Assembly (NCBI GenBank): GCA_022402465.1
Contig: JAKRSH010000008.1
Span: forward strand, 1 to 52,698
DNA from: Leptospiraceae bacterium
Lineage (GTDB): Bacteria > Spirochaetota > Leptospiria > Leptospirales > Leptospiraceae
Reading direction: 5' to 3'
Length of the DNA: 52,698 nt
The notes under the pieces were generated by a model. That model saw only the letters and a list, made by a program, of their open reading frames with translations, did not search any database and was not told where the DNA came from. Below are positions 21,948 through 52,607 of the stretch, one piece after another. The number at the start of each line of letters is the position of its first letter. Position 1 is the stretch's first letter. Both the position numbers and the translations under genes were made by a program.

Positions 21948-24374
21948 TTATTCTTCTGTTGTAAAACTCCATTCCTTCTTCCAGATTCTTCCAGCACTCA
22001 TATTTCCTTCCGCATTAATTGTATATTCTTCATTTGAACTTAGTGGATCTTTACTCATGATCCAAATTTCAGATTGTCCACCTATACCATATTTATTATC
22101 TGAAGGTTGAATGATCCAAAGTGGAATATTTTTCCCAGAACTATCGGTCATTGTTGCTTTAAAATTCTTTAGATCATATGATCTTTCTTTATTGAATTTT
22201 ACAACAATAGGGAATCCTACAATTTGATCTTCATCTTCTAGAGGCGTTGTATTTGGAATTTCATTAATCATTGTTAGTGGTACATTTTTTTGATTTTCGT
22301 AAGGATACACTTTCACATTAGGTGCTGTATTTTGCATCATATTCATATATTGATAATTTAAGCCAACTACTCGTAGCACGGATTTACTTATATTGTTGTC
22401 TATTGTTTTAGAAAAACCATATCCTACCTTAAGAAATCCTAGTCCTGTAATTGGTTTTCTATGCAATATAGTATGATGCCAAGTATCTATTGCTTGGTCT
22501 AGTTCAGCTTCATTAAAAGATAGAACTTCTCCTAGGGTTCCATATCTAAATTCGTTTTTAGCTCCTTCCTCTGAGTAAAGTGGCAGATTAGGATTCTGAT
22601 TGTGGGCACCTAAACCTTTTGTTGAGGGATGGTTCTCGTTTGCAATCAAATATCTGGCATGAGCTTCAGATGCCAAAGATAAGCGAAAATCCATCTCTAA
22701 AGGTGGAGCACCATTATTAACACGAAGATTATTGAGTTTTGTCATTGTTAAGCGATAAGTTTCTTTTAATCTTTGATTCGGAGTAGCCTGATTTAAATGA
22801 ATGATGACTGTATTTGGTAAAAGACTTTTAATTTTCCTTAAAGCCTCTGGTGTAAGAGGATTTCCATCTAAGTGAATTGTTTTTAGTCCTCGCATCCTCT
22901 TAAATGAATCAGGTAGACTAGATATATTATTATTTCGTAAACTTAAGTATTCAAGTTGATTTAATTTTACGAATTCAACAGGAAGCTTAGATAGTTTATT
23001 GTCACTTAAATCTAAGATATTCAAATTTTTTAAATTACCAATTGTACGAGGTAAAGAACTTATTTCATTTCCACCGAGATATAGTTCATTTAAAGAATTA
23101 AGAGAACCAATACTGTCTGGAATTTCAGAAATACTATTTCCAAAAGCGGATAATACTTTAAGCTTTTGTAGACCTTTGAGATCTGATGGTAGGGATTCGA
23201 GTTTGTTAAAGCTTACATCAAGAAGTTCAAGTCTACTTAATTTTCCAATATTCCTTGGAAGGTTTGCTAATTGATTAAATGTTAAATATAGTCCTTTGAG
23301 ATTTGCAAGGTTCCCTAAGGATTCAGGTAGGCTTTTTAATTGGTTGAAACTCAATTCCAAAACAGTTAATTTATTTAGAGCTCCTATTTCTTCTGGCAAT
23401 GAGGTAATCTGATTTTGACGCATATGCAGAATCTCTAGAAGACTAAGGTTTTTTATATCAGAGGGAATTGATTGAATTTGATTATTCCATAGATAAAGAT
23501 GAGTTAGAGAATTCGTACTTGAAAAATTTCCTGATAGTTCTTTAATTTGATTCGAATGCAACCATAGTTTTTGGAGAGAAGATAAATTATTTAAGTTTAG
23601 ATCAATTGAAGAAATACTATTATGCGATAGATTGATTTCTTTTAGATTTTTTAGAGAGTTGAGAACTTGTGGCCATTTGCTAAATTTATTATCCATCAAA
23701 TTTAAATCTTGCAAATTCTCTAACTTAGAAAATTCAGTCGGTAATCCTTCCAGTTGATTGGATTCAAAATTGATTCCTTCAATAGAGTTTAGCTTTGCAA
23801 TATCTTTAGGAAGTGATTGAAGTTTGTTCTCAGTTATAGTTAACCATTTTAGATTCATTAAATTAGAAATAACATTTGGAAATTTAACAAATTCATTTTT
23901 ATTGAGACGAATGCCATTCAAATTTTTTAAATTTTTAATACTTTCAGGAAGAGATGAAAGACGATTCGTATTAAGATTTAAATTATTAAGATTATTTAAT
24001 TCTCCCAACTCAGATGGTAAATCTTGTAGTCCTGAACTAATTTCCAAACTTTCGATATTTTTTAGAAAATGAATACTTGGCGATAATTCAGAATAATCTC
24101 CTAATAATTCTAAATGCTTCAATTTTTTGAGATTATTCAATTGTTCAGGAATTTTTGAAGACCTCGCATAGATAGTTAATCTTTCTAGATTTGTATATTT
24201 ATCTATATCTAAAGGTATCTCAGAAATATTTTCTTTGGAGGTACCCAGAGTAAGTCGGCTTGCATTTAGTTTAGCTTGGTCTGAGCCTTTTTGAGAAGGT
24301 TCTTGACTATAGATGGGTGTACAAATTTGAAAAGCTAAGTACAATATCAAGATAGAATTTAGTAGATTTTTCAT
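21948..24374 (-). CDS. leucine-rich-repeat protein with CAP (SCP-like) domain and C-terminal Ig-like domain
   Basis: 808 residues with AAGGAG before the ATG. A cleavable signal peptide ends near PIYSQEP. From about 45 to 530 there are roughly 21 repeats of 23 residues of the LPxxIxxLxxLxxLxLxxNxL type, as in Leptospira LRR proteins. A CAP domain follows at about 535-665, with SLASEAHARYLIANENHPS, the GLGAHNQNP His region, LGEVLSF and the WHHTILHR His region. The last 85 residues resemble a Big_5/Ig-like module (PIVVKFNKERSYDL to WSFTTEE). It is probably exported or on the cell surface. LRR parts bind proteins, and CAP domains bind lipids or metal or act as uncertain hydrolases; the function of the combination is unknown. 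Confidence 0.88.
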   Translation of the reverse strand: MKNLLNSILILYLAFQICTPIYSQEPSQKGSDQAKLNASRLTLGTSKENISEIPLDIDKYTNLERLTIYARSSKIPEQLNNLKKLKHLELLGDYSELSPSIHFLKNIESLEISSGLQDLPSELGELNNLNNLNLNTNRLSSLPESIKNLKNLNGIRLNKNEFVKFPNVISNLMNLKWLTITENKLQSLPKDIAKLNSIEGINFESNQLEGLPTEFSKLENLQDLNLMDNKFSKWPQVLNSLKNLKEINLSHNSISSIDLNLNNLSSLQKLWLHSNQIKELSGNFSSTNSLTHLYLWNNQIQSIPSDIKNLSLLEILHMRQNQITSLPEEIGALNKLTVLELSFNQLKSLPESLGNLANLKGLYLTFNQLANLPRNIGKLSRLELLDVSFNKLESLPSDLKGLQKLKVLSAFGNSISEIPDSIGSLNSLNELYLGGNEISSLPRTIGNLKNLNILDLSDNKLSKLPVEFVKLNQLEYLSLRNNNISSLPDSFKRMRGLKTIHLDGNPLTPEALRKIKSLLPNTVIIHLNQATPNQRLKETYRLTMTKLNNLRVNNGAPPLEMDFRLSLASEAHARYLIANENHPSTKGLGAHNQNPNLPLYSEEGAKNEFRYGTLGEVLSFNEAELDQAIDTWHHTILHRKPITGLGFLKVGYGFSKTIDNNISKSVLRVVGLNYQYMNMMQNTAPNVKVYPYENQKNVPLTMINEIPNTTPLEDEDQIVGFPIVVKFNKERSYDLKNFKATMTDSSGKNIPLWIIQPSDNKYGIGGQSEIWIMSKDPLSSNEEYTINAEGNMSAGRIWKKEWSFTTEE

Positions 24375-25068: not shown

Positions 25069-26214
25069 ATGTTTAAAAATCTACACATCAAAAATCTAAA
25101 TCGTTTCTATGGTATTTCGATTCCTATTTTAAGTTGTGTTATTTTATTTTATTCTTGCTCATCTGCTTCAAATAAAGATTTAAATAAGAACGATCCAAGT
25201 TCAATTAAATCTAATTCTTCTGAATTAAATTCTCAAAAGGAAGCAGATTTATTTGAATTAGATTTTCCTGGTCAATATGTAATTTACCACGATGAACGCG
25301 GTGGCAGAAACAATCTCGTTGGCATACTTAAATTTAATAAAACAGAATACATTGCCCGTCAATTCAATATTGATACCCAACAAGAACTGATTATAGATTT
25401 TAAAGCTTTATCTTATCCGAATGGTAAGGTTGATTATCGTGGTGGGAAAATTTATAAAGGAAATGATAATGAAGCATTGTTTCTATTAACAGATTTAGCG
25501 AATATGATTTCTCAATATGGCGAATATAGAAAACAATCTCAGAAGGATGTGGATATTATTGATAAATGGCCTGAGTTTGGTTATACTTTGGTACATAGTT
25601 ACAAGTTTTGGATTCCTCTTTTTCATTTGTATGAAACTAAAAAAGAAAATGAATCTCAGAATTTTTTAAAAATACTTTTTGTTGGAAGAATGCTTTCTGA
25701 GAATGATACAACCTTCTTTAGTTTGAAGAGTATTCCACTTGTATACAAAACAGCAGAGTTTGATATAGAGTCCTTTCCCAAGACTAATATATTCAAGGCT
25801 GGTATTTTCACTGTTAATCTTGATCAGAATTGGATAAAGTACAAAGATCCAAACAATCCAAATCCTGATTTCCAAGGTTTTTTAATTAGTAAAAAATCAA
25901 AAAGAGATGCCCAAGTTTCCGTTGAAATTGTTCCTAAGAAAAATTTTCCATACAACATTGAGCTCTTAGCGAAAATAGGTATCAGCTTCAATACTTTGGT
26001 AGAACCTGAATCAGTAAGTTTTATTAAGGTAGGAGATACATATAAGGTTTCTTTTATGACCTTAGATCCTAAATCATTAAATGAAACGTATATGTATCTT
26101 TATTATAAACCGGATAGGGAAGGTAATATCCATATATTCCATTTAAGTGCTTATCGAGATACTTATGAATCGAATAAAAATTATTTTGATACAATCATAG
26201 AATCAGTTCAATGA
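25069..26214 (+). CDS. hypothetical lipoprotein
   Basis: 381 residues. The lipoprotein signal ends VILFYSCSS with the lipidated Cys at 30, and a low-complexity Ser/Asn/Lys linker follows to about residue 60. The remaining globular part has no recognised domain. It includes a SLKSIPLVYK-type beta-rich region and near its end a long helix-poor segment. Its stop overlaps the end of asnB on the other strand by 12 bases (convergent genes). Confidence 0.65.
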   Translation: MFKNLHIKNLNRFYGISIPILSCVILFYSCSSASNKDLNKNDPSSIKSNSSELNSQKEADLFELDFPGQYVIYHDERGGRNNLVGILKFNKTEYIARQFNIDTQQELIIDFKALSYPNGKVDYRGGKIYKGNDNEALFLLTDLANMISQYGEYRKQSQKDVDIIDKWPEFGYTLVHSYKFWIPLFHLYETKKENESQNFLKILFVGRMLSENDTTFFSLKSIPLVYKTAEFDIESFPKTNIFKAGIFTVNLDQNWIKYKDPNNPNPDFQGFLISKKSKRDAQVSVEIVPKKNFPYNIELLAKIGISFNTLVEPESVSFIKVGDTYKVSFMTLDPKSLNETYMYLYYKPDREGNIHIFHLSAYRDTYESNKNYFDTIIESVQ

Positions 26215-28263
26215 TAAGTATTCACCTGAGTCTAAGTCTTTAATTTTTTCTTGAACTAACTTTAATGCTAATTTAGGAATGTCCTCTTCTATAAATATTT
26301 CTTGGAGAATTTGGAGACCAATCGCATGATTCAAAAGTGCATCTTGTTGAACTAAAGTTCCAACTGCTGTTTCTGGATTTGTATAGGATTTCCAAAGTTC
26401 GTCTATTTTCCTTGGATCCATTATTCCAAGTCGTTCTACTTTATCTGGACTTAGGTATTTTTCTTTCAATAGAGAGAGTGCATCTAGCTTTGCTTGGTCA
26501 GTATGAGCTGGTGGTGCCATGAATGCAAATTTTTCTCTTTTATATAATTCTTCTGGCAATACACCTTTCATTGCTTCTCTAAGCACATACTTTTCAATTT
26601 TTCCTTTGATTCTATAAATTGGAGGAATTTGAACCGCAAGCTCTGCCAAGTGATGGTCCAGAAAGGGTGGTCTTGCTTCCATGGAATTCGCCATATCAAC
26701 TCTATCACCTCCCCAAGTTAAAATTTGACCTTCTAACATTGTTTTAATCCAAACATATTGTACCTTATCCAATGCATGTCTTCCGTCTAACTGAAATTTA
26801 TCTAAACTTTCTGCAATTTTACTTCCTGGGTCATAGTTATTTAGTTCAGCTAAAGTTTCAGAATTCATGAGGTTCTTAGCATGAGGAGTTAATGAAATCC
26901 AATTTTCGATACAAGCCGGCATAAAGCCGACTTTTTTCACTAGATCTGGATGGATATAGTCATCTAGACTTAGCATGGCTCCTCGAAATAGTTCATTGGA
27001 TTTATTTAACATCTCTTCCCATTCTGCCTTATCTTTGTCTGGAAGACTTTGTATACCATGCCTAAAGAAATCTTTTCGAAAAGAAGGATAACCAGCGAAC
27101 AATTCGTCCGAACCTTCTCCAGTCATTACAACCTTATAACCAAATTTTTTGACATGTCTAGACATAAGTAGTTTTGCTACACCTAAAGTATTATAAATAG
27201 TTCTTTCTGTGTGCCAATGCGTCTCTATAAAATGATCGTATAGATGGCTAGCATCCAAGATCATGATGTCTTGGTCAGCACCAACAGACTCTGCCATATT
27301 CGTTGCAATTTTACTCTCATCATAAGATTCATTATCAAAGCCTATTGTAAATGCCTTGACAGCGTCTTGGCGAACCGCCGAAGCAAGTCCGAGGATGGAA
27401 CAGGAATCTATTCCACCACTTAAATAACAACCTACAGCCACATCTGCATTGAGACGAAGTTCAACTGCATGCAAAAGTTCAGATCGCACTTGGTTTATCC
27501 AATATTTTTCATTCTTACCTGGATCATTTTTTGCAATTGCTTCTCTATCTTTATCTAATGGAAAGTTCATATCCCAATATGTTTTCTCTTGAACGAATAT
27601 TTTACCATTCGATCGGGTTACTTTTAAATATTTACCAGGAGGAACTTGGTACACACCTTCAAAGGTCGTACTCCCAGGTACCATAACTTGAATAAGTTGA
27701 TGAAAAGCTCCCTCTTTGGATATCTTTCTAGGAACGTCGGGATGTGCAAAAAGTACTTTAACTTCGGAGCCGAAGATAAAATCTCCTTGGGGAGTTATTG
27801 TCCAATACTGAGGTTTGATTCCAAAACGATCTCTTGTCAAATAAAGAGTATCAATTGACTTATCATAGAGTGAAAAAGCAAATTCCCCTCTAAGATCTTT
27901 CAAAGATTCTTCAAAACCTTTGTCAGGATATAGATGAAGTAAGATTTCTGAATCAGATTTGGTTTTAAATTTGTAACCTTTAGTTGTAAGGGTTGCACGA
28001 ATTCTTTGGTAATCATAAAACTCTCCGTTATGTGCAAGCAGTAAGTTTCCATCTTCTGATTGGAAGGGTTGCCTTGCTCGATTCGATTCTAAATCAATAA
28101 TAGAGAGTCTGGTATGAGAAAATCCAATTCCCATATCTTCCAGTATTTTGAAACCAAAACCATCAGGCCCTCTATGGTGTTGAATTGCAGCCATTGCTAC
28201 TAAATGTATTTTATCAATAGTTCTTGATTGATCTTTATGAAAAATTCCTCCAATTCCGCACAT
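26203..28263 (-). CDS. asnB: asparagine synthetase (glutamine-hydrolysing)
   Basis: 686 residues. The N-terminal glutaminase domain begins MCGIGGIF, with C2 as nucleophile after Met removal, and RGPDG and LAHNGEFYDY are present. The synthetase domain has the PP-loop SGGIDS at 282-287 and the downstream GEGSDELFAGY. It makes asparagine from aspartate with glutamine nitrogen and ATP. A strong ribosome-binding site (GAGGAG) precedes the start. It is the last gene of a run of nitrogen-related genes, 16 bases after the isochorismatase-family gene. Other amide-forming AsnB paralogues exist, so the acceptor could differ from aspartate. Confidence 0.93.
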   Translation of the reverse strand: MCGIGGIFHKDQSRTIDKIHLVAMAAIQHHRGPDGFGFKILEDMGIGFSHTRLSIIDLESNRARQPFQSEDGNLLLAHNGEFYDYQRIRATLTTKGYKFKTKSDSEILLHLYPDKGFEESLKDLRGEFAFSLYDKSIDTLYLTRDRFGIKPQYWTITPQGDFIFGSEVKVLFAHPDVPRKISKEGAFHQLIQVMVPGSTTFEGVYQVPPGKYLKVTRSNGKIFVQEKTYWDMNFPLDKDREAIAKNDPGKNEKYWINQVRSELLHAVELRLNADVAVGCYLSGGIDSCSILGLASAVRQDAVKAFTIGFDNESYDESKIATNMAESVGADQDIMILDASHLYDHFIETHWHTERTIYNTLGVAKLLMSRHVKKFGYKVVMTGEGSDELFAGYPSFRKDFFRHGIQSLPDKDKAEWEEMLNKSNELFRGAMLSLDDYIHPDLVKKVGFMPACIENWISLTPHAKNLMNSETLAELNNYDPGSKIAESLDKFQLDGRHALDKVQYVWIKTMLEGQILTWGGDRVDMANSMEARPPFLDHHLAELAVQIPPIYRIKGKIEKYVLREAMKGVLPEELYKREKFAFMAPPAHTDQAKLDALSLLKEKYLSPDKVERLGIMDPRKIDELWKSYTNPETAVGTLVQQDALLNHAIGLQILQEIFIEEDIPKLALKLVQEKIKDLDSGEYLSLN

Positions 28264-28279
28264 ACAAATCTCCTCAAAA

Positions 28280-29014
28280 TTAAAATTTGGAAGGAATTTT
28301 ATTACTCAATTCCTCAATTGCTTCTTCTGTTGTTATCACTCTCGCATAACGATCTTTTAAAATACGAATTGTAAAATCATGAAATTCTTCGGTGACTGTA
28401 GTGCAAGCGTCATCTATTAAATTTACAAAAAATCCCAAATCGGATGCATCTCTCACAGTAGTGGACACACATTCGTTAGTATATACTCCGCATACATAAA
28501 GTGTGTTTACACCGATATTTTTAAGAATGAATTCAATGTTTGTAGATGTGAATACACCAGATGCTGTTTTATTAATGATTATTTCATCACCCAGAGGAGC
28601 GATTTCTTCCAAAAATTCTGCTTCTTTTGTTCCTGGTGCCGCGAGTAAACCTAGTCTTTTGTGACCTGCTGATCTATCTCGTCCATCCTTTGTTAAGGAT
28701 TGAATTCTTGTGTGAATGACTTCTAATTTTCTTTTTCGAAATAAGGATTGTAATTTTTGAATATTTGGAATAACAGTATTCTCTAACATATAAAAATAAT
28801 AATCTTCTGATTCTGGTGGAACGCCTGACTTGCCTGTTTCTGCAAACACTCCATAACCTCTTGCAGCATCTAGGTATTGCATATCAATAACCAATAAAGC
28901 GATATGATTTTTTTTTAATAATTCATCTCTTTCTGGATTTTCAATGATAGATTCTAAATAAATTTCTTTGAGAGGATCTTCATTGATCATATCTACGTTT
29001 AATTCTAACTCCAT
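28280..29014 (-). CDS. isochorismatase-family cysteine amidohydrolase
   Basis: 244 residues. The catalytic triad of the family is in place: D44 in ALLVIDMQ, K149 in IINKTASGVF and C182 in GVYTNECVSTT. The family includes N-carbamoylsarcosine amidase, ureidoacrylate amidohydrolase (RutB), biuret hydrolase and nicotinamidase, all splitting C-N amide or carbamoyl bonds. The roughly 35-residue acidic N-terminal extension is unusual. It starts 2 bases after the M20-hydrolase stop, so it belongs to the same pathway. From context, hydrolysis of a carbamoyl or amide group is more likely than true isochorismatase activity. Confidence 0.85.
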   Translation of the reverse strand: MELELNVDMINEDPLKEIYLESIIENPERDELLKKNHIALLVIDMQYLDAARGYGVFAETGKSGVPPESEDYYFYMLENTVIPNIQKLQSLFRKRKLEVIHTRIQSLTKDGRDRSAGHKRLGLLAAPGTKEAEFLEEIAPLGDEIIINKTASGVFTSTNIEFILKNIGVNTLYVCGVYTNECVSTTVRDASDLGFFVNLIDDACTTVTEEFHDFTIRILKDRYARVITTEEAIEELSNKIPSKF

Positions 29015-29016
29015 AA

Positions 29017-30246
29017 TTATTTTGTTAGCTCCAAAATTGTATTCAAGAGAACATTAGCACCAATATGAATATCTTCCCAGGCTGTCCATTCAGCTGGGCT
29101 ATGGGATCTTCCATTTTTAGATGGAACAAAAATCATTCCCATATCAGTTATACGTGCCATGATTTGTGCATCATGTGCTGCACCACTGTGCATTTTATGG
29201 TATTTGTAATTTTGTTTATCACAGGAATTTTGTATTGCTTCGAGAATTTTCAAATTAGAATTAGCTGGTTTAACTTGACTTAGTATATCAAATTCAAACA
29301 TCAGGCCTCTCCTTCTCGCAATTGCAGAGATTGCTTTGCGAAAGGCATTAGATAATTCTTCTAAGATTGATTCATCCGTATCTCTTACATCTAAAGAAAA
29401 TTCAACTCTACCAGGAACCGTATTAGCTGAACCAGGAAATAAACTGACTCTTCCTATGGTAGCTACAGAATTTTCTTTACCGTTTTCTTCTAAGATGCGT
29501 GGAATTTCTAAGGAAAATTCTGCTAATCCTTGAAATGCATCTTTACGCATAGTCATAGGAGTCGTCCCTGCATGATTTGCTAAGCCTGTTAGGCGAACCT
29601 GCCACTTAAAAAGACCAGTGATTTGTTCAACAATTCCGATTGGGATTTGTAAACTATCAAGAATCGGCCCTTGTTCAATATGCAATTCTAAGTATCCTGC
29701 TATTGTGCTTGGGTTTCTTCTTGCGTCTAAAGCTTTGCTTGCATCAAGACCTGCATCTTTCATTGCATCTACTATGCTCATTCCAGATAAATCTTTAGCA
29801 TTATGAATTCGGTCAGGCGTGAGCTCTCCTGCAAAGGCTTCTGATCCAAATAATCCGCCAAATCTTCCTTCTTCATCTGTGAAAGAAATTACTTCTAAGG
29901 AATGATTAGGAATGAATTCTTTCTTTTTGAGAGTTCTTAAGACCTCTAGACCAGTTAACACGCCTAAGCTTCCATCTAAATGTCCACCTGCTGGAACCGT
30001 GTCTATATGTGAGCCAATAATCCAAGACTTTGAATCATCTTTGCCTTTCAGTTTTCCTATGATATTACCTGCACCGTCTACTGAGGATTCTAGACCTGCA
30101 TCTTGGTACCTACTTAGAAGCCATTCCCTGGCTCTCAAATCAGCTTTTGTAAAAGACATTCGATAGATTCCTCTGTCCGCTGACTTTCCAATATCACTTA
30201 AATTGGAAATGTCTTCTTTAAGTTTATCGAATTCTATAGTTTCCAT
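29017..30246 (-). CDS. M20-family Zn amidohydrolase (N-carbamoyl-amino-acid hydrolase / allantoate amidohydrolase type)
   Basis: 409 residues from ATG at 30246, which overlaps the previous stop (TGATG); a TTG one codon upstream is less likely. Two-metal ligands of the hydantoinase/carbamoylase branch are visible: H80 (GSHIDTVPAGG), D91 (LDGSLGVL), E126 (TDEEGRFGG), H189 (LELHIEQGP) and H382 (RSHSPAEWT). The dimerisation-domain motif GLANHAGTTPM is present. Family members hydrolyse N-carbamoyl amino acids, allantoate or beta-ureidopropionate to give ammonia and CO2. The exact substrate cannot be decided. It lies between a carbamoyltransferase-like gene and an isochorismatase-type amidohydrolase. 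Confidence 0.9.
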   Translation of the reverse strand: METIEFDKLKEDISNLSDIGKSADRGIYRMSFTKADLRAREWLLSRYQDAGLESSVDGAGNIIGKLKGKDDSKSWIIGSHIDTVPAGGHLDGSLGVLTGLEVLRTLKKKEFIPNHSLEVISFTDEEGRFGGLFGSEAFAGELTPDRIHNAKDLSGMSIVDAMKDAGLDASKALDARRNPSTIAGYLELHIEQGPILDSLQIPIGIVEQITGLFKWQVRLTGLANHAGTTPMTMRKDAFQGLAEFSLEIPRILEENGKENSVATIGRVSLFPGSANTVPGRVEFSLDVRDTDESILEELSNAFRKAISAIARRRGLMFEFDILSQVKPANSNLKILEAIQNSCDKQNYKYHKMHSGAAHDAQIMARITDMGMIFVPSKNGRSHSPAEWTAWEDIHIGANVLLNTILELTK

Positions 30247-31373
30247 CAATTGATCTCTCTTGAATTAGGATTTTTATTTAAATTTTGATCTGGCAAATCT
30301 GTTACCAAATTGGTTCTTTGAACAAGGCAAGTTAGAAGTGCCATACGAAGAAAAACTGCTCCTCTTGCTTGCGCAAAATACCAATTATGATCTGAATTAT
30401 CTAAATTAATATCTAACTCCTCGCCTCTTGCAAGTGGATGTAGAATGATGGAATTCTTTTTGAGTTTTAAATTTTTAGATAAACGTATATCACCTGTTAA
30501 TACCTCAAAAGATTCTCCAACCCAGGCGATAGAGTTAATATAAATTACATCTAACTCTTGGATTACTTTTGATAAACTTTTAGAGTGAGAAACTTTTAAT
30601 TTAGATAGATTTATATCCTTCAATTGAACATCATCTAAAGATTTATCGTCCGAATTAATTATTACTACTTCACTAATTGAACTTGCAAAATAAGAAAGAA
30701 GAATAAGTAAAGAACGAACAGTTCGCATTCTACTCGGTGTTCCTATAATTCCTATTTTGATTTTCTTTGAATCAGGTAAATCATCGTTAATAAGATTAGG
30801 TTGCCATTTTAAAATAGCATATATATCTGCTAAAGCTTGAGTTGGGTGTTCATCAACTCCGTTTCCTGCATTGATGATAGGAATTCTAAGAGTCTCTATC
30901 ATTCTATAAACAGAATCATCTTGGTTGTCCCTCAGAACGACAACATCACCATAATTATTAAACATCTCTCCCACATCTTCTAAGGATTCACCTTTAGCAA
31001 TACCTGTAGTTGATCTGTCAGTGATTGACATAATATCACCACCTAATCTATGCCATGCTGATTCAAAAGAAAGTCTGGTTCTGGTGGAAGGTTCATAAAA
31101 GGCAGAAATTAGAATTTTACCTTGTAATGGACGATGAAATAAAGTTGGATGTATTTCATAACTTGCCGCGAGTCTACAAAGTTGAATAACCAATTCTTTA
31201 TCGAATTGTTTGGCAGATACAATATGTTTTTGAGATAGATATAGAAGAGCTTCTGATTTCTCTTCTACAAAATCTAAAAAGGCTTTTGGTTTTTCTATTC
31301 CCGAATAACCATCTCTAGGTGAAATGCTGGTTTTTAGCTTGCTGGGAAGTTGATCTCGGAAGGAAAAATTCAC
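30246..31373 (-). CDS. aspartate/ornithine-carbamoyltransferase-superfamily protein with altered acceptor site
   Basis: 375 residues from GTG at 31373, preceded by GGGAGA; a TTG at 31394 is the alternative. Carbamoyl-phosphate residues are kept: STRTR (96-100), K127, R148 and HPTQ (176-179). The C-terminus resembles PyrB (LHPLARGEELD, NWYFAQARGAVF). The aspartate-binding loop does not: where E. coli PyrB has TRVQKER, this protein has NSIAWVGES, so the positions matching R229 and Q231 are S281 and A283, and HPLPR has become HPLAR. It is therefore likely a transcarbamylase for another acceptor, working in either direction. Neighbours point to ureide metabolism rather than pyrimidine synthesis. 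Confidence 0.82.
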   Translation of the reverse strand: MNFSFRDQLPSKLKTSISPRDGYSGIEKPKAFLDFVEEKSEALLYLSQKHIVSAKQFDKELVIQLCRLAASYEIHPTLFHRPLQGKILISAFYEPSTRTRLSFESAWHRLGGDIMSITDRSTTGIAKGESLEDVGEMFNNYGDVVVLRDNQDDSVYRMIETLRIPIINAGNGVDEHPTQALADIYAILKWQPNLINDDLPDSKKIKIGIIGTPSRMRTVRSLLILLSYFASSISEVVIINSDDKSLDDVQLKDINLSKLKVSHSKSLSKVIQELDVIYINSIAWVGESFEVLTGDIRLSKNLKLKKNSIILHPLARGEELDINLDNSDHNWYFAQARGAVFLRMALLTCLVQRTNLVTDLPDQNLNKNPNSREIN

Positions 31374-31498
31374 CAAATCTCTCCCTTGATACAATCTTTA
31401 ATAAATAAGAAGAGCAATATTGCAAAAGCTAGAGCACAGAAAATTAAACTTCCATACCTAAGAATTTCCATTGAAAATAAATTTATATATACTACCAT
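31370..31498 (-). CDS. 42-residue single-span membrane peptide
   Basis: A short frame between the symporter and the carbamoyltransferase. It starts ATG at 31498 (with AAGGAGAG 11 bases upstream inside the symporter gene) and ends TGA at 31370. Its stop overlaps the GTG of the next gene as GTGA, so translation is likely coupled. One hydrophobic span (GSLIFCALAFAILLFLFI) is followed by a basic-acidic tail KDCIKGEIW. It could be a small accessory subunit of the symporter. An internal ATG would give 33 residues with the same span. Confidence 0.6.
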   Translation of the reverse strand: MVVYINLFSMEILRYGSLIFCALAFAILLFLFIKDCIKGEIW

Positions 31499-31500
31499 AT

Positions 31501-32952
31501 TTACGAAAGCTCTCCTTCTTTGTCGAATGAATTGTTATGATTCGAAAGATATCTCTCCCAGGAGAATTCTTCTGGATATAGTATAGAACCTAAAAATGCA
31601 ATTAGCATAGAGACTGCTGTTCCAACCAAGGCAGCAGTATAAAATCCAATCATAAAGTAGGAAGTAAGTCCAATTAAACTTCCGACTAACATAGAAATGA
31701 ACATAGCTGTTCGATTCGCTTTCTTCCAATAGATACCTAAAATTATAGGCCAAATCATCGAAGAAACAAGAGCTCCTGAGAAATGTAAAATTGCTGCCAA
31801 GTTGGAGATACGAGGAAGGCAAATCAGCCAAGCAAAAAATCCTAGAAGTAGAATGCAAATTTTGCTAGCAGAACTCATTTGTTGGTCGCTAGCGTGAGGT
31901 GTAAAATGTCCTTTATAGATATCTTCAGCGATCAAATCAGAGCTTGCTGCTAGTAGAGAGTCTAAACTGGATGCTAATGCACTGAAGACTAGAATAAATA
32001 TTACTATCCCACCCCAAGTACCCAGCAGATGTCCAGCGACCAGTGGACCTACCATATCTGGGAATGGGACAGGTATTGCACTTGCAGATGCTATAAAAGC
32101 TAGGAATCCTGCTGCAATCGGAATGGGAAACCAAAGTATACCGCTCCATAAAAAAGCTCGGAATCCCACTCCCTTTCTAAATGCGAAAGCTCTAGACCAC
32201 CAAACATTAGAATGAAAAATCTCACCAATTCCAAATAATATATTATTAAATAAAAAAATTAAGGCGGCTGGAAATAAAAGATTGAGTAAACCAGGGCTGT
32301 CTTCCAAAATCCTATCTCGCATTATAGATGTATCCATAGCTTGGAGAGAGATTACACCTATTACTGTCAATCCAAGAAGTATGAGGATTGTCTGGATAAA
32401 ATCAGTTCCAATGACAGCTTTAAGTCCACCTAATAAAGTATAACTGATACAGATGAAAAGAATTATACTTAGTCCAATTTTGTAAGGTATACCAGTTAAA
32501 GATTGGACCAAGATTCCTCCTGCCATACCTAAACTAACTAGCCATGCAAGGCTATAAATAAGAGAAAGAAACAGAAATATACGCCATGAACTTTTACCAA
32601 AACGGATTCGTATGAAATCACCCGAAGTTGTACCGTAAGGAAGGATTTCACGTATTCTTTTAGCAAGAGGTGCAAATAAAATTAATCCAACCGCTCCCAT
32701 AGAGTAGCCAAGCATTCCCCAAATTCCCATCTGGTAAGCAAGTTCAGGTGCAACCATAGTAGTATTAGTTGTTACCCAAGTTGCCATACTTGTTGCTGTA
32801 GCAAGTGATAAACCTACATTTCTCCCTGCAAGCTGGAAATCTTCTGCTGTTTTATTTTCTCTACCTAGATACCAACCTAAAATAATCCAAAGTATACTAA
32901 ATAGACCAATTAAAATAAATCCTGTAGAAATAGATAAAACAGGCTCATCCAT
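31501..32952 (-). CDS. sodium:solute symporter (SSS family)
   Basis: 483 residues with about 13 hydrophobic segments and the SSS signature region (SALASSLDSLLAASSDLIAE) in the second half. The N-terminal part has AEDFQLAGRNVGLSLATATS, typical of the family. The pattern has some likeness to DUR3-type urea transporters and to other organic-solute members; I cannot decide the solute. It starts 2 bases after a small membrane protein that itself overlaps the P-II gene. From the downstream carbamoyl-handling enzymes I infer import of a ureido compound or urea. Confidence 0.88.
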   Translation of the reverse strand: MDEPVLSISTGFILIGLFSILWIILGWYLGRENKTAEDFQLAGRNVGLSLATATSMATWVTTNTTMVAPELAYQMGIWGMLGYSMGAVGLILFAPLAKRIREILPYGTTSGDFIRIRFGKSSWRIFLFLSLIYSLAWLVSLGMAGGILVQSLTGIPYKIGLSIILFICISYTLLGGLKAVIGTDFIQTILILLGLTVIGVISLQAMDTSIMRDRILEDSPGLLNLLFPAALIFLFNNILFGIGEIFHSNVWWSRAFAFRKGVGFRAFLWSGILWFPIPIAAGFLAFIASASAIPVPFPDMVGPLVAGHLLGTWGGIVIFILVFSALASSLDSLLAASSDLIAEDIYKGHFTPHASDQQMSSASKICILLLGFFAWLICLPRISNLAAILHFSGALVSSMIWPIILGIYWKKANRTAMFISMLVGSLIGLTSYFMIGFYTAALVGTAVSMLIAFLGSILYPEEFSWERYLSNHNNSFDKEGELS

Positions 32953-32954
32953 GA

Positions 32955-33365
32955 TTAAGCCTTTTTGGATTCCAGAGACTTGGAAAGTGTTGAATATAGG
33001 ATTGTTAATAATATTGTTGAGAATAAAAATAATCCTATGGATAAAAATCCTAAAGTTTGATTAGAATTATAATGCTTGATATCTACTTTAAGGAATGAAC
33101 ATAATTGGTTTAATTCATAGGAATTATTGTTTAGATAGGCTAAAGATTCTGATAATTCCTTCTCACAGATAGCGTATTCATATTGTCCATCTAATAATCC
33201 TGAAATAGAGTAACTAGAATTAGATCCTTTGTATAAACTCTTCCATGAGGATTGTGTTTTCAGATACAGATAAACCTCAGAATGTGATGAAGGTTCATCT
33301 TGCTTCCATTTTAGAGTGAAGTATCCAGTTTTATTAATAATTTGATTTTGGTTAAAAACTACCAT
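32955..33365 (-). CDS. FN3-like small membrane protein
   Basis: 136 residues. Residues about 10-75 resemble a fibronectin type III-like beta-sandwich (GYFTLKWKQDEPSSHSEVYL and YSISGLLDGQYEYAI), and one membrane span lies at about 105-127 followed by a short basic tail. It has no N-terminal signal, so the orientation is uncertain. Its ATG overlaps the P-II stop (TAATG), and the symporter begins 2 bases after its stop. It may link P-II or another sensor to the transporter. Function otherwise unknown. Confidence 0.65.
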   Translation of the reverse strand: MVVFNQNQIINKTGYFTLKWKQDEPSSHSEVYLYLKTQSSWKSLYKGSNSSYSISGLLDGQYEYAICEKELSESLAYLNNNSYELNQLCSFLKVDIKHYNSNQTLGFLSIGLFLFSTILLTILYSTLSKSLESKKA

Positions 33366-33706
33366 TATCGAATTGCTTCTACACCTTCTTCTTTGGTTCG
33401 AATTCGAATTACCTTATCTATCGTCGTAATTACAATTTTACCATCACCAATATTTCCTGTGAAACATTTATCTAGAATAACTTGAACAACCTCATCTTGC
33501 AAATTATCCTCTATAACAATTACAATCATTATTTTAGGCAGAAAATCAACCCTGTATTCAGTACCATTGATTACCTCATGGTGTCCTTGCTGGGTTCCAA
33601 ATCCTCGTACTTCATGGATGGTCATACCTGTTATGCCTTTATCCAATAAAGCATCTTTAACTGAATTCAATTGGTATGGTTTTATATATGCTTCTATCTT
33701 TTTCAA
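33365..33706 (-). CDS. glnB: nitrogen regulatory protein P-II
   Basis: 113 residues from TTG at 33706, chosen because it gives the canonical start MKKIEAYIKP and length; another TTG at 33739 would add 11 residues. The T-loop is intact (GFGTQQGHHEV, then GTEYRVDFLPK) with Y51, the classical uridylylation site. The B-loop TGNIGDGK (83-90) and R101/R103 bind ATP or ADP. P-II senses 2-oxoglutarate and ATP/ADP and controls nitrogen transporters and enzymes. It heads the symporter-carbamoyl-enzyme-asnB gene run rather than an amt gene. Whether it is GlnB or GlnK by descent cannot be settled here. Confidence 0.93.
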   Translation of the reverse strand: MKKIEAYIKPYQLNSVKDALLDKGITGMTIHEVRGFGTQQGHHEVINGTEYRVDFLPKIMIVIVIEDNLQDEVVQVILDKCFTGNIGDGKIVITTIDKVIRIRTKEEGVEAIR

Positions 33707-46748: not shown

Positions 46749-48785
46749 TTAGGAAAAAGAAAGTTCATTTGATTTTCGATTTTGTAGGAAATAGGTGAAT
46801 AAATTCCCTCTGCCTTTGATTTCAATCTCACCACGTTCTTCTAGTTCATACTTACCATCAAGTAGCTTGGCGGTTCGTTCGGATATTTGAATCTTACCAG
46901 GCATGCCATGAGATTCTAAACGGCTAGCAACGTTTACAGCATCTCCCCAAATGTCGTAAATAAATTTCTTTTCTCCTATCACACCTGCAACCACTGGGCC
47001 ACTGTTAATTCCCATTCGCATTTGCAAGGGTTCTCCTGACTTCCATTTGAATTTTTTGATTTGATTCTGGATGTCTAAAGCAAAACCTGCGATTGCCTCA
47101 GCATGGTGTGGCAATGGATTGGGAACTCCGCCTACTACCATATAAGCATCGCCTATGGTTTTTATTTTCTCAAGTCCATATTTGTCTGTTAAACGATCGA
47201 ATACCGATATAATTTTATTGAGCATCTCAACAACTTTCTGTGGAGACATGGTTTCCGCAATTCTAGTAAAACCAACTATATCTGCAAAAAGAATAGTTAC
47301 TTCTTGGAAACTTTTAGCTATGACCTTATTGTCTTTGCCTTTCAATTCTTCTGCAACAGAAGAAGGAAGTATATTTAATAGAAGCTTCTCTGCACGATTT
47401 TGTTCAAAGGCTATATTTTCAAATGCTTCTTCGATTTGCTTACGTGCAGCTTCATTTTCCGCTAAGGTTTCTCTTACTTTTGCAAGAACTTTATTGTATT
47501 GAATGGCAATCTGTCCAACTTCTGTAAATGGTTCAACAGGTACATCTTCGGTTAGGTCTCCTGTCTTCTTTTGTTTCTCCATTATGATCAAAAGATCGAT
47601 TAAATCAGTTCTAGCCTTGTGCTCACTGATATTGAGACCTACCTTTTCTTCTTCGATACTGACTCTTAATTTATAGAATTTGTTGGTGATAAATAGTATA
47701 ATATAAGTTAAACCAAATGAAAAAATACCTACTACTGTAACTCCCATCAATTGTACAAGAATATCACCCTTGCCAAAAATTCCCACAGCTAAAGTTCCCC
47801 AAATCCCACCTACAAGATGAACAGGGATAGCACCTACAGCATCATCAATCTGAAAATGATTGAGTAAGGTTTCCGCAGGTTTAACTAGGGCTCCACCGAT
47901 GGCACCTACAAGAATCGCTTCCCTAGCAGTAAAAGCATCGCAACCAGCAGTAATTGCTACTAGTCCGGCAAGTGAGCCATTGAGTGGGGCTATTGGTTCC
48001 GGGAAGCCTTCGAATTTCCAACCTACGAACAAGGCTATCACTAAGCCAGCTCCAGCAGCAAGCAAGGTATTCATTATAATGCTTGTTATTTGAACGTCAA
48101 AATTCAAAGCACTTCCACCATTGAAGCCGATCCAACCGAACCAAAGTATAATACCACCTAACATTGCCATAGGTAAATTGCTTGGATTTATTTGAACAGG
48201 TTGTCCATTCTCATCATACTTTCCAAGTCTAGGTCCGATTACCAGTAAAGCGGCTAAAGAGACCCAACCTCCTACACTGTGTACGACAGTTGATCCTGCG
48301 AAATCTATAAAATCTAAGGCTTGTAACCAACCCTCTCCTGTATTCGGTAGCAGTCCCTTCCAGATCCAATGACCAACCAAGGGATAGATTACAACCGAAA
48401 CCAAAACTGTAATTAAAAGATATCCTTGGAATTTCAATCTTTCTGCAACAGCACCTGAAACAATAGTAGCCGCTGTTCCACAGAAAACCAATTCAAAGAC
48501 GAAGAATCCTGATAAGAATTCAGCTGATTCTCCCTCCCAAGTCGGTGCAAAATAGTCAAGACCTATCCAACCATAGTAGGATGTTCCAAACATAATTCCA
48601 AAACCAACCAACCAATAAAAAATCGTAGCGATACCAAAATCAGTGATATTTTTGATGGCGACATTGATAGAATTTTTGGAACGAGTGAGTCCAGATTCCA
48701 CACATAGGAATCCAGCCTGCATAAAAAGTACAAGGGCTGTTGATAAAATGATCATAAGGCTACTTAAAGAATCGGAATTATTCAT
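46749..48785 (-). CDS. ammonium transporter fused to class III adenylate cyclase
   Basis: 678 residues. Residues 1-375 form an Amt/MEP channel with the twin histidines H169 (DFAGSTVVHSVGG) and H323 (VGAIPVHLVGG), D161, and the Amt C-terminal motif GLNISEHKA. A HAMP-like linker (about 380-440, GDLTEDVPVEPFTEVGQIA) and a coiled coil (440-475) lead to a class III cyclase domain at 490-670. Metal aspartates are D502 and D546, the adenine-specifying pair is K542 and D611, and the transition-state N618 and R622 are present. It should carry or sense ammonium and make cAMP in response. A sigma-54-like promoter lies just upstream. No stand-alone amt gene or P-II gene is adjacent. Confidence 0.93.
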   Translation of the reverse strand: MNNSDSLSSLMIILSTALVLFMQAGFLCVESGLTRSKNSINVAIKNITDFGIATIFYWLVGFGIMFGTSYYGWIGLDYFAPTWEGESAEFLSGFFVFELVFCGTAATIVSGAVAERLKFQGYLLITVLVSVVIYPLVGHWIWKGLLPNTGEGWLQALDFIDFAGSTVVHSVGGWVSLAALLVIGPRLGKYDENGQPVQINPSNLPMAMLGGIILWFGWIGFNGGSALNFDVQITSIIMNTLLAAGAGLVIALFVGWKFEGFPEPIAPLNGSLAGLVAITAGCDAFTAREAILVGAIGGALVKPAETLLNHFQIDDAVGAIPVHLVGGIWGTLAVGIFGKGDILVQLMGVTVVGIFSFGLTYIILFITNKFYKLRVSIEEEKVGLNISEHKARTDLIDLLIIMEKQKKTGDLTEDVPVEPFTEVGQIAIQYNKVLAKVRETLAENEAARKQIEEAFENIAFEQNRAEKLLLNILPSSVAEELKGKDNKVIAKSFQEVTILFADIVGFTRIAETMSPQKVVEMLNKIISVFDRLTDKYGLEKIKTIGDAYMVVGGVPNPLPHHAEAIAGFALDIQNQIKKFKWKSGEPLQMRMGINSGPVVAGVIGEKKFIYDIWGDAVNVASRLESHGMPGKIQISERTAKLLDGKYELEERGEIEIKGRGNLFTYFLQNRKSNELSFS

Positions 48786-49685: not shown

Positions 49686-52607
49686 ATGAGTTATATATAT
49701 AGAACATTAAGGAAAAAATGTGAGGAAGATTCAAGTCTAACACCTCTTCTTGCTCAATGGGAATTCGACCAAAAGCTATTAGCCAATGCTCTGAGAAGCG
49801 TTGTTTACTCATTTCCGCATTATAGTATGCATGATGATTCACATTCCAACACCATATTAATTCAAATAGAGAAAGTACTTGGAAAAGAAAGAATAGAATC
49901 TTTGTCTGGAACTGACCTTTGGTTATTGCTAGAAGCAGCGTACTCCCACGACTTAGGAATGGTCATCTCAGAAAAAGATAAGAAAGAAGCTCTGGAATCG
50001 CAACAATTCTATGAATACCTCGAAGAAATAATTCAAGATAAAAATCATGAAAATTATGAAGAAGCTAGATTAATTAAGTCTTCTGAGTTCAAAGAACTTT
50101 TAGAAAAATCGCCTAAAACATGGCCTTTAGATGTATCTAGGAGTGTAACTATCCTATTGGCAGAATATTTCCGTTCAAAGCATGCTACAAGATCCAAAGA
50201 ATTAATAGATCAGCCTTCTAGGATAGGATTGAAGTCCCCTCGCACAGGGTTGATTCCATCTAGATTGTTTAGCTTATTGGGGAAAATCACTGAAAGTCAC
50301 GGAAAAGATCATGAATATGTGATGAATTTTCCTCAATTCGAAGACGGAATTGGTATGGATAAATGCCATCCAAGACTTATTGCATTTCTATTACGATTAG
50401 GTGATTTGTTAGATATAGATAACGGTAGATTTTGTCCTGTTATGCTATCATCCTTTGGTACATTGCCTAAAACGAGTGAAACACATTATGAGAAGCATGA
50501 TTCTATAGAACATCTCAATATATCTCAATCCGCTATAGAAATTACGGCTAAAACTGATAACTATGAAGTTCATGGATTGCTAAGTAAATGGTTTGATTGG
50601 ATAAAAGAAGAAATCGTTTTCATAAATAACAATCTAAGTCAAATAATTCCATCCGTTGATTTTGGTGGATTCCCTTCAGCTAATAATTTAATAGTGGAAC
50701 TTCTAGGCTACGAAATTGTAGAAAACTCGCATAGACTGAAAGTTGATATAGATCCAGGTAAAGTCATTGAGATGTTACGCGGAACAAGTTTATATAGTTC
50801 TTCGAATGTCTTTATTCGGGAGATATTACAAAACTCAGTCGATGCGACACTTCTAAAATATTTTTGTGATAATAAATCTGATTTAGAAAATTTAAAATCT
50901 CCTAATGAATTTTTTGAAAAACTAAAAAAAGATGATAGATATAAAATAAGTATTCATTTATCTGAAGTTCCAAAACTAGATCGAAATGTCACATTTCGAA
51001 TGGAAATAGAAGATTCAGGTATTGGTATATCTCGAGAAGAGATTTCCTATTTGCTTAATATGGGAACTTCTTACAATAATTCTAGAAGAAAAAAAATAGT
51101 TAAACAAATGCCAGAATGGATGAAACCTTCAGGTTTTTTTGGCATTGGATTTCACTCTATCTTTCAAGTGGTTGATGATGTCACGATATCAACAAAGTCA
51201 ATTTATGATTCTTGTCAGTATGAGATTCAATTTGCAGAAAAAGGAAAACAAGTAAAGATTAGGAAGGTAACGAATGAAGATATTCTGACAAAATCTTTTA
51301 CGAAAATTACTATTGATATTGAATCAGAAAAAATTCCAGAACGGTTCACTTACAAATATGAAAATGAGAAAGCTCTTGAAACTATTTCAAACTTTGATGC
51401 ATTGCTAGATGATGAGTTTCCAATAAAAAAAGCAAACTTAATCTATGATATTAATGATTTTGTATCTGACTATCAAATTCCAATATACTTGAATGATTAT
51501 CAATTAAATAAACAAGCAGTAGACGCTAAAGGAATTTTTTGCCCTGAATCTAATAGCTATATTAAAATAAATCCAGTTATGAGTCGATTGCCTGGATCTA
51601 ATATATTCTATCGCAATCAATTGGTGCTAAAAAATACACGAGACCTATATCTCAAATATTTGGTATATGAATTGGATGTCATGGATGGTAAGGCAGATGA
51701 TTATCTTACATTTTCCAGAGAAAAGCTTAGTCATGAAGGAATAAAGAGGGTTGATGAAATTTTGGAAAAAGAAGTCCGACAAATTTTAGAGTTGAATTAT
51801 GAACAACATCCAGAGAATAAAAAATTATTATCATTAGCATATCACTCTAATTTTGATAAATCAACTGAAATAATTGGAGATGAATGGAAAGATTTCGAGG
51901 TTAATCAAAGTAATGACTCCAGTAAGTTTAAAACACTTCGGGAGATTTTATTAGAGGAATCATTAACTCTTAAATACCAAAAAAAGGTTTCCGAGAATGA
52001 GGTATTGATATTAAAAATAGTTAAAGATGAGTATATTCTCGATTCCAGATTAGATATTTTAGATTTTTTTGTAGAAGAAATCCATAAAGAGTTTCCACAT
52101 TATAAGTTTCTTAATTTTAAGAACTATTCGGAGAATACGATAATAGGAAACATTCCTATTCAGGACAGAGTTTTAAAAAAAGAGTTTTATTTTTCTAAAA
52201 CTGAATTTACGGAGACTGAAATAATATTACCAGGTGTGCTTAAATCATTTTTTGATAATTATAAGCAACACAAAGGTTGGGGTGCTGTAGTTAAAAGAAC
52301 CCTTCTCCCACTTTTTTCTATAAAATATACTAAAATTTCTATGGAATATATCTCTGCGCGTTCTATTCTTCCATTTATACAATCTATATATGATTCAGAT
52401 TTTAATATTTTTAAAGATTTTATAATCAATCCATTTGTTTTTGAGAACAATAATTGGAAAGTGAAAGGTTTAGAGGAAGCAAAGCAAAAGACATTTAAGA
52501 TTAAACGTGAAAAGGATAACTTAATTAAACTAGAAGAAATATCAAAGCTATTTGATGAGTTGGTGGCGGAGATTAAGGGGATACTAAAGGATGAGTCAGG
52601 GGAATAA
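49686..52607 (+). CDS. HD-domain plus Hsp90-like (GHKL) ATPase protein, putative defence
   Basis: 973 residues. The N-terminal third is an HD-type phosphohydrolase-like domain with H49/D50 (YSMHDDSH), H88/D89 (AAYSHDLGM) and D240 (LLRLGDLLDIDNGR). From about 355 a GHKL ATPase follows, with the N-box REILQNSVDA (E379, N383, D386), DSGIGIS at 443-449 and the lid GFFGIGFHS at 483-491. The last 450 residues have no recognised fold. Proteins joining HD and Hsp90-like ATPases are found in bacterial defence islands. The start lies 2 bases after the nuclease-fragment gene, so both probably share a transcript. The mechanism is not known. Confidence 0.83.
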   Translation: MSYIYRTLRKKCEEDSSLTPLLAQWEFDQKLLANALRSVVYSFPHYSMHDDSHSNTILIQIEKVLGKERIESLSGTDLWLLLEAAYSHDLGMVISEKDKKEALESQQFYEYLEEIIQDKNHENYEEARLIKSSEFKELLEKSPKTWPLDVSRSVTILLAEYFRSKHATRSKELIDQPSRIGLKSPRTGLIPSRLFSLLGKITESHGKDHEYVMNFPQFEDGIGMDKCHPRLIAFLLRLGDLLDIDNGRFCPVMLSSFGTLPKTSETHYEKHDSIEHLNISQSAIEITAKTDNYEVHGLLSKWFDWIKEEIVFINNNLSQIIPSVDFGGFPSANNLIVELLGYEIVENSHRLKVDIDPGKVIEMLRGTSLYSSSNVFIREILQNSVDATLLKYFCDNKSDLENLKSPNEFFEKLKKDDRYKISIHLSEVPKLDRNVTFRMEIEDSGIGISREEISYLLNMGTSYNNSRRKKIVKQMPEWMKPSGFFGIGFHSIFQVVDDVTISTKSIYDSCQYEIQFAEKGKQVKIRKVTNEDILTKSFTKITIDIESEKIPERFTYKYENEKALETISNFDALLDDEFPIKKANLIYDINDFVSDYQIPIYLNDYQLNKQAVDAKGIFCPESNSYIKINPVMSRLPGSNIFYRNQLVLKNTRDLYLKYLVYELDVMDGKADDYLTFSREKLSHEGIKRVDEILEKEVRQILELNYEQHPENKKLLSLAYHSNFDKSTEIIGDEWKDFEVNQSNDSSKFKTLREILLEESLTLKYQKKVSENEVLILKIVKDEYILDSRLDILDFFVEEIHKEFPHYKFLNFKNYSENTIIGNIPIQDRVLKKEFYFSKTEFTETEIILPGVLKSFFDNYKQHKGWGAVVKRTLLPLFSIKYTKISMEYISARSILPFIQSIYDSDFNIFKDFIINPFVFENNNWKVKGLEEAKQKTFKIKREKDNLIKLEEISKLFDELVAEIKGILKDESGE

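Follow-up and report, generated by a model that had tools for sequence, protein, structure and literature searches.

Which molecule is handled by an operon that combines a transcarbamylase, an asparagine-synthetase-like protein, two hydrolases and a sodium:solute symporter? The question was raised by a 52,698-nucleotide stretch of DNA from a Leptospiraceae bacterium (contig JAKRSH010000008.1; the whole stretch is called the window here). The gene calls in the window confirmed eight co-directional genes on the minus strand, from position 33706 to 26203, and across the whole operon neighbouring genes either overlap or are separated by gaps of 2–16 bp. They encode, in this order, a P-II regulator, a small membrane protein (SMP), a sodium:solute symporter (SSS), a membrane microprotein, a transcarbamylase (TC), an M20 enzyme (M20), an isochorismatase-type amidase (ISO) and a glutamine-dependent amidotransferase (ASN). 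The most likely function, in our proposal, is to make, take up and recycle an uncharged ureido amino-acid compound that protects against salt. Osmolyte metabolism for a carbamoylated amino-acid amide is very probable; that the product is specifically N-carbamoyl-glutamine amide (CGA) is likely but less assured.

The CGA reading is based on the conservation of the gene set in five phyla, its division into modules, the changes in the active site of TC, the separate clade formed by ASN and the osmolyte genes among the neighbours. It is also based on the joint occurrence of TC and ISO, and on genomes that match the known CGA producer by gene pattern and carry the genes. The enzyme set fits the molecule, as it comprises a carbamoyl transfer, an amidation and the two reverse hydrolyses.

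Conservation and modular order of the gene set

A scan with ISO gave 43 loci, and the window proteins were compared with these and with 20 further stretches, most of them picked around TC. The core of TC, ASN, M20, ISO and SSS was found to recur in five groups: spirochaetes (Leptospiraceae and other spirochaete genomes), Gammaproteobacteria (Thiohalophilus, Thioalkalivibrio and Thiogranum), Verrucomicrobia (Pelagicoccus, Luteolibacter and Haloferula), Bacteroidota (Flexithrix) and Calditrichaeota. Many hosts of the gene set are marine or from salt lakes. The eight-gene arrangement is far beyond chance, given that the genes recur in several phyla and that even the 42-codon peptide is retained between SSS and TC. 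An earlier, sequence-only reading of this DNA had proposed that a single operon, including an importer and an enzyme that hydrolyses the carbamoyl group, handles a ureido (N-carbamoyl) compound, and had named gene conservation in relatives as its test. This proposal was supported, and the conservation extends across phyla.

The gene order is shuffled module by module: TC goes with ASN, M20 with ISO, and SSS with the two small membrane proteins. M20 and ISO remain adjacent across the loci, and TC adjoins ASN in Gammaproteobacteria, Verrucomicrobia, Flexithrix, Calditrichaeota and some spirochaete-type loci. Loci of the window type have the M20-ISO pair inserted between TC and ASN, and in several Verrucomicrobia and in Flexithrix the pair is divergent from SSS-TC-ASN. 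TC-ASN was found without M20-ISO in two loci (L125, L126) and M20-ISO without TC-ASN in three (L034, L036, L058), a pattern that would be expected if one module makes a solute and the other consumes it.

In the order of Thioalkalivibrio and Ectothiorhodospira, TC (E ≤ 1e-60) and ISO (E ≤ 1e-40) were present in the same 41 of 47 genomes; in one of the 41 (G134) the operon genes are scattered. A plasmid search gave no TC match of at least 60% identity, and the best among the matches listed, which were annotated as PyrB or unannotated, reached 35%. On viral contigs TC matches did not exceed 35% and ISO had one relative at 40%, and a viral copy of the gene set was not found there.

The transcarbamylase

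The TC gene (30246–31373, minus strand) has a GTG start within the stop of the microprotein gene (GTGA). The protein scored 190 bits on TIGR00670, under the equivalog cut-off of 237 for aspartate transcarbamylase (ATCase). Its structural model (pLDDT 85) has the ATCase fold, with a best Z of approx. 37 to ATCases. In ATCase, R229 and Q231 of the 240s loop bind the beta-carboxylate of aspartate, and R167 together with K84 binds the alpha-carboxylate (PMC4581275). The RxQ motif of this loop is missing from the window TC; the residues for carbamoyl phosphate are retained, as is the Arg by which the alpha-carboxylate is positioned. All 75 operon-type TC homologues carried N-[S/A]-I-[A/V] and HPLA, and all 17 ATCase-like proteins of the same genome set carried T-R-I-Q (once T-R-I-A) and HPLP. 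Invariant in both groups were S96, T97, R98, T99, K127, R148, H176, Q179 and R217. The protein thus shares with PyrB the fold, the carbamoyl-phosphate site and the alpha-carboxylate Arg, but differs from it in the loss of RxQ and HPLP.

Judged from these residues, TC is not an ATCase. Because the side-chain motif is lost while the catalytic and alpha-carboxylate residues are kept, the acceptor should be an amino acid that is bound via its alpha-carboxyl and whose side chain is not a carboxylate. Binding of this kind also suggests that TC acts before ASN. We propose TC as an L-glutamine N-carbamoyltransferase, with glutamine as the probable acceptor. Two other transcarbamylase homologues are present in the genome of the window (contigs C20 and C24), which by rank and likeness we read as PyrB and ornithine transcarbamylase; TC therefore need not be the pyrimidine enzyme. 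In the photosynthetic genome G098 the TC gene (L119, 7648–8740) is split into pieces of 246 and 147 aa, by a frameshift or an assembly error.

A pseudo-ATCase of the HPLA type has been described before in marine bacteria by Barba et al. 2013 (PMC4016543), where its neighbours are HyuC, a Na+ symporter and a gene called an 'asparaginase'; no function was proposed for it. TC has all four motifs given there for the subgroup (STRT, HPTQ, HPLA and SIA/AIA/AIS), and STRT, HPLA, the H and Q of HPTQ and [SA]-I-[AV] at positions 281–283 were found in 75 of 75 homologues. The TC block also contains a Na+ symporter and a HyuC-type gene (M20), as described for the subgroup, and marine hosts are a further likeness; the hosts named there are Rhodopirellula, Nitrosococcus, Synechococcus and Kangiella. 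We met no mention there of ISO, of SMP with its Fn3-like domain, of the microprotein or of neighbouring osmolyte genes. HPLA is placed under pseudo-ATCase 1 in its Table 1, but the text and a later review suggest the marine subgroup 3, so that the labels seem to differ. We therefore made the match to the subgroup by motif.

The amidotransferase and the two hydrolases

ASN (26203–28263, minus strand) passed the asparagine synthase equivalog TIGR01536 with 428 bits (cut-off 267). In a tree of 77 rows, made by a quick method and with long-branch warnings, the operon ASN proteins (50 rows) formed a single clade with a support of 100, and other asparagine-synthetase-like proteins of the same genomes fell outside it. 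A known system resembles the operon at this point. The N-acetylglutaminylglutamine amide (NAGGN) pathway of Sinorhizobium and Pseudomonas likewise has an asparagine-synthetase-like amidotransferase and leads to an uncharged, amidated, glutamine-derived osmolyte. It differs in its N-acetyltransferase and its dipeptide, and the operon has a transcarbamylase in that place; no N-acetyltransferase partner was found among the operon genes. ASN reached 289 bits against the NAGGN family TIGR03104, under the cut-off of 570. We propose that ASN amidates the alpha-carboxyl of N-carbamoylglutamine.

ISO (28280–29014, minus strand) matched PF00857 with 124 bits. Its residues D44, K149 and C182, which we take to be the Asp-Lys-Cys triad of isochorismatase-type amidases, were invariant in 21 aligned sequences. 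It stayed under the equivalog cut-offs of biuret hydrolase (NF050097, 72 vs 370 bits) and RutB (TIGR03614, 51 vs 378 bits), and we propose it as the hydrolase of the 1-amide.

The ATG of the M20 gene (29017–30246, minus strand) has one base in common with the TC stop. M20 scored 529 bits on NF006771 (cut-off 399) and 416 bits on the hydantoinase/carbamoylase family TIGR01879 (cut-off 204), and it passed an NCBIfam subfamily named allantoate amidohydrolase. Against the allantoate deiminase AllC equivalog TIGR03176 it stayed under the cut-off (300 vs 598 bits). The same applied to ErtE, an N-carbamyl-L-glutamate amidohydrolase (404 bits, cut-off 520), for which a literature search was without result. 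The closest solved structure was an N-carbamoyl-L-amino acid hydrolase (3n5f). Enzymes of this kind usually act on substrates with a free carboxyl, and since M20 belongs to them, ISO would act before M20.

The symporter, its two small membrane proteins and P-II

SSS (31501–32952, minus strand; PF00474, 102 bits) has homologues of 47–65% identity in conserved clusters, and we propose it as the importer of the solute. The 42-aa microprotein (31370–31498, minus strand) has a single membrane span and ends in KGEIW. Where the SSS and TC genes adjoin, nearly every locus has a microprotein of approx. 24–45 aa between them, with one hydrophobic span and a C-terminal Leu/Ile/Val-Trp. A profile built from 22 sequences also matched in nine loci outside the build set (L120, L125, L126, L127, L129, L130, L132, L133, L135), and gave no match in the loci without SSS (L116–L119, L122, L124, L134, L053). 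No convincing NCBIfam or Pfam match to the microprotein was found.

SMP (32955–33365, minus strand) contains an Fn3-like domain and a C-terminal transmembrane helix. An alignment of its homologues revealed a hydrophobic N-terminus, probably a signal peptide, followed by the Fn3-like domain and the C-terminal helix. The AlphaFold model of a homologue has a pLDDT of 92 and gave weak Foldseek matches to Fn3 domains (E approx. 5e-4). Library scans returned no trustworthy family match for SMP; a weak match to a restriction endonuclease family (PF09565) was under the cut-off and in conflict with the Fn3-like model, and was rejected. SMP of the window is without the hydrophobic N-terminus of its homologues, and its start overlaps the stop of P-II. 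Nearly all loci with SSS also have SMP, and loci without SSS have none. From this co-occurrence we propose the microprotein and SMP as accessory subunits of SSS.

The first gene of the operon encodes P-II (GlnK/GlnB-type; 33365–33706, minus strand; TTG start; PF00543, 87 bits). P-II accompanied the operon only in spirochaete-type loci and adjoins SMP-SSS in L031–L033, L035, L069, L125, L127–L129, L131 and L132. The description of the operon as headed by P-II, given in the sequence-only reading, consequently holds for the spirochaete type and not elsewhere.

CGA and genomes that resemble Ectothiorhodospira by gene pattern

Knowledge of CGA as an osmolyte goes back to 1991; it was reported from Ectothiorhodospira marismortui, also called E. 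mobilis (PMC1224877). It was later listed as a candidate solute for relatives without betaine and ectoine genes, among which Thiorhodospira and Ectothiorhodosinus lack the genes for the synthesis of both (PMC7824335). So far CGA is known as a metabolite, and in the open-access papers searched we found no gene assigned to it. A literature search for a salt-linked asparagine synthase with a carbamoyltransferase gave nothing relevant. A cold-transcriptome paper on Thioalkalivibrio (PMC8092127) treats betaine, and none of the operon gene names that we searched for occurred in its text.

Photosynthetic reaction-centre genes were found in 11 genomes of the order. E. mobilis and E. marismortui have GMT and GMT-B and no betABI (PMC7824335), and only G093 and G094 of the 11 had two GMT-type genes (matches < 1e-80) and no betA. 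In both, TC, ISO and ASN lie near one another, and in L117, cut from G093, M20 lies beside ISO. By this pattern G093 and G094 match E. mobilis/E. marismortui. Two further genomes, G095 and G134, fit Ectothiorhodosinus and Thiorhodospira by the gene pattern of PMC7824335, and both have TC. The genome of the window contains a BCCT transporter.

Genomic neighbours

Several neighbours of the gene set are osmolyte genes. In L126, ASN is directly followed by a glycine/sarcosine methyltransferase (GSMT; 504 bits, cut-off 350) and a methyltransferase of the sarcosine/dimethylglycine (SDMT) type (320 bits, under the cut-off of 550), and homologues of both follow ASN in L048. MscS-type channels follow ASN in two loci (L124 and L134) and ISO in one (L037). 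L116 and L124 contain sucrose synthase, and a PfkB kinase, nearest to fructokinase and under that cut-off, was found in L116, L122 and L123. Within the Thioalkalivibrio order, 17 of 47 genomes have a sucrose synthase over the cut-off, and in 15 of these it lies at most 5 kb from TC (in G130 only a part); of the other two, G099 has it on a contig with an ISO fragment and G134 has it apart from TC. A further scan of 20 neighbours gave as pointers to osmoadaptation only the MscS channel of L037 and the methyltransferase of L048; the rest were mixed, and none of the 20 indicates purine, urea or hydantoin breakdown.

Proposed pathway and alternative explanations

In the pathway that we infer, TC would carbamoylate L-glutamine at its alpha-amino group, with carbamoyl phosphate as the donor, and ASN, with ATP and a second glutamine, would amidate the alpha-carboxyl to give an uncharged product. 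SSS, with the microprotein and the Fn3-like SMP as accessory subunits, would regain leaked or environmental CGA. ISO would take off the 1-amide, after which M20 would hydrolyse the carbamoyl group and release glutamine, ammonia and CO2. In the spirochaete lineage, and only there, P-II probably couples this nitrogen-costly solute to the nitrogen status.

Several points weigh against this pathway. The link to sucrose synthase comes from a single order and may go back to one event; generally, the lineage-specific neighbours may reflect few events, and many loci have unrelated neighbours. The match of G093 and G094 to the CGA producer was made from the gene pattern only, and glutamine was preferred over other amino acids with an uncharged side chain on the basis of the CGA literature. 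Additionally, ASN might also supply asparagine in the genome of the window, because no other AsnB-like gene there is over the cut-off, AsnA was not found and AsnRS is present.

The alternative that survives best keeps the osmolyte logic with another product, either the N-carbamoyl amide of an amino acid other than glutamine or products specific to each lineage. TC has lost the recognition of the aspartate side chain and its new acceptor may differ from glutamine; between lineages it is 40–67% identical, with S or A at position 281. CGA is, however, the sole carbamoylated and amidated compatible solute that we met in the literature searched, and genomes that match its reported source by gene pattern carry the genes. 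We regard another product as unlikely, though worth keeping in mind.

Improbable in our view is the catabolic operon put forward by the sequence-only reading, with import of a ureido compound, phosphorolysis of the carbamoyl group by TC, its hydrolysis by M20 and storage of nitrogen as asparagine. It would agree with two hydrolases (M20 and ISO), a probable importer and a nitrogen regulator. A purely catabolic scheme does not account for loci that have TC and the ATP- and glutamine-consuming ASN without M20-ISO, or for those with the converse. Carbamate kinase, allantoinase and urease were not recurrent beside the operon among the neighbours identified at the compared loci. The asparagine storage is likewise not supported: the operon ASN proteins group separately from other asparagine synthetases, and among the neighbours are several osmolyte genes.

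Slightly less probable again is that ASN is the ordinary asparagine synthetase of the host and was drawn into an operon that serves a carbamoylated amino acid. Its TIGR01536 score and its position as the sole AsnB-like gene over the cut-off in the genome of the window speak for this. In many other genomes, though, the operon ASN occurs alongside another asparagine-synthetase-like gene, and the well-supported ASN clade stays with the TC cluster in almost every lineage.

Purine catabolism, with TC as ureidoglycine transcarbamylase and M20 as allantoate amidohydrolase, is very improbable: the subfamily name of M20 agrees with it and ureidoglycine transcarbamylase is likewise an ATCase-like pseudo-ATCase, but that enzyme has H[ST]LP (PMC4581275) where TC always has HPLA, it sits with carbamate kinase and allantoinase, neither of which was recurrent or among the neighbours identified here, and M20 falls under the AllC cut-off.

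Other observations in the window

Three further genes were recorded. A 678-aa fusion of an Amt ammonium transporter (PF00909) and an adenylate/guanylate cyclase domain (PF00211) lies at 46749–48785 on the minus strand, 13 kb from the P-II operon. At 49686–52607 (plus strand) a 973-aa protein with HD-CE and HSP90-like ATPase domains is encoded, possibly a stress or defence protein. An 808-aa leucine-rich-repeat protein is encoded at 21948–24374 (minus strand), and its C-terminal part had no Pfam match at the threshold used.

Implications

With CGA as the product, a wider picture can be drawn, which we offer tentatively as something possible rather than probable. The operon may represent the full life cycle of CGA as a widespread and overlooked osmolyte. 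In marine communities and those of salt lakes, genomes that make it and genomes that consume it would trade it as a nitrogen-rich currency. The importer may then be a new kind of SSS that works with a microprotein of approx. 40 residues (Leu/Ile-Trp end) and an extracytoplasmic Fn3-like protein, a possible sensor of osmolarity.

If the CGA reading is true, the pathway would become searchable in genomes and metagenomes, and TC and ASN would form a two-gene tool for making CGA. Genes now called ATCase, asparagine synthase and allantoate amidohydrolase would have to be re-annotated. With the gene set come two membrane protein families without a convincing Pfam or NCBIfam match. For Thiorhodospira and Ectothiorhodosinus, whose genomes as matched by gene pattern carry TC, CGA would offer a solute.

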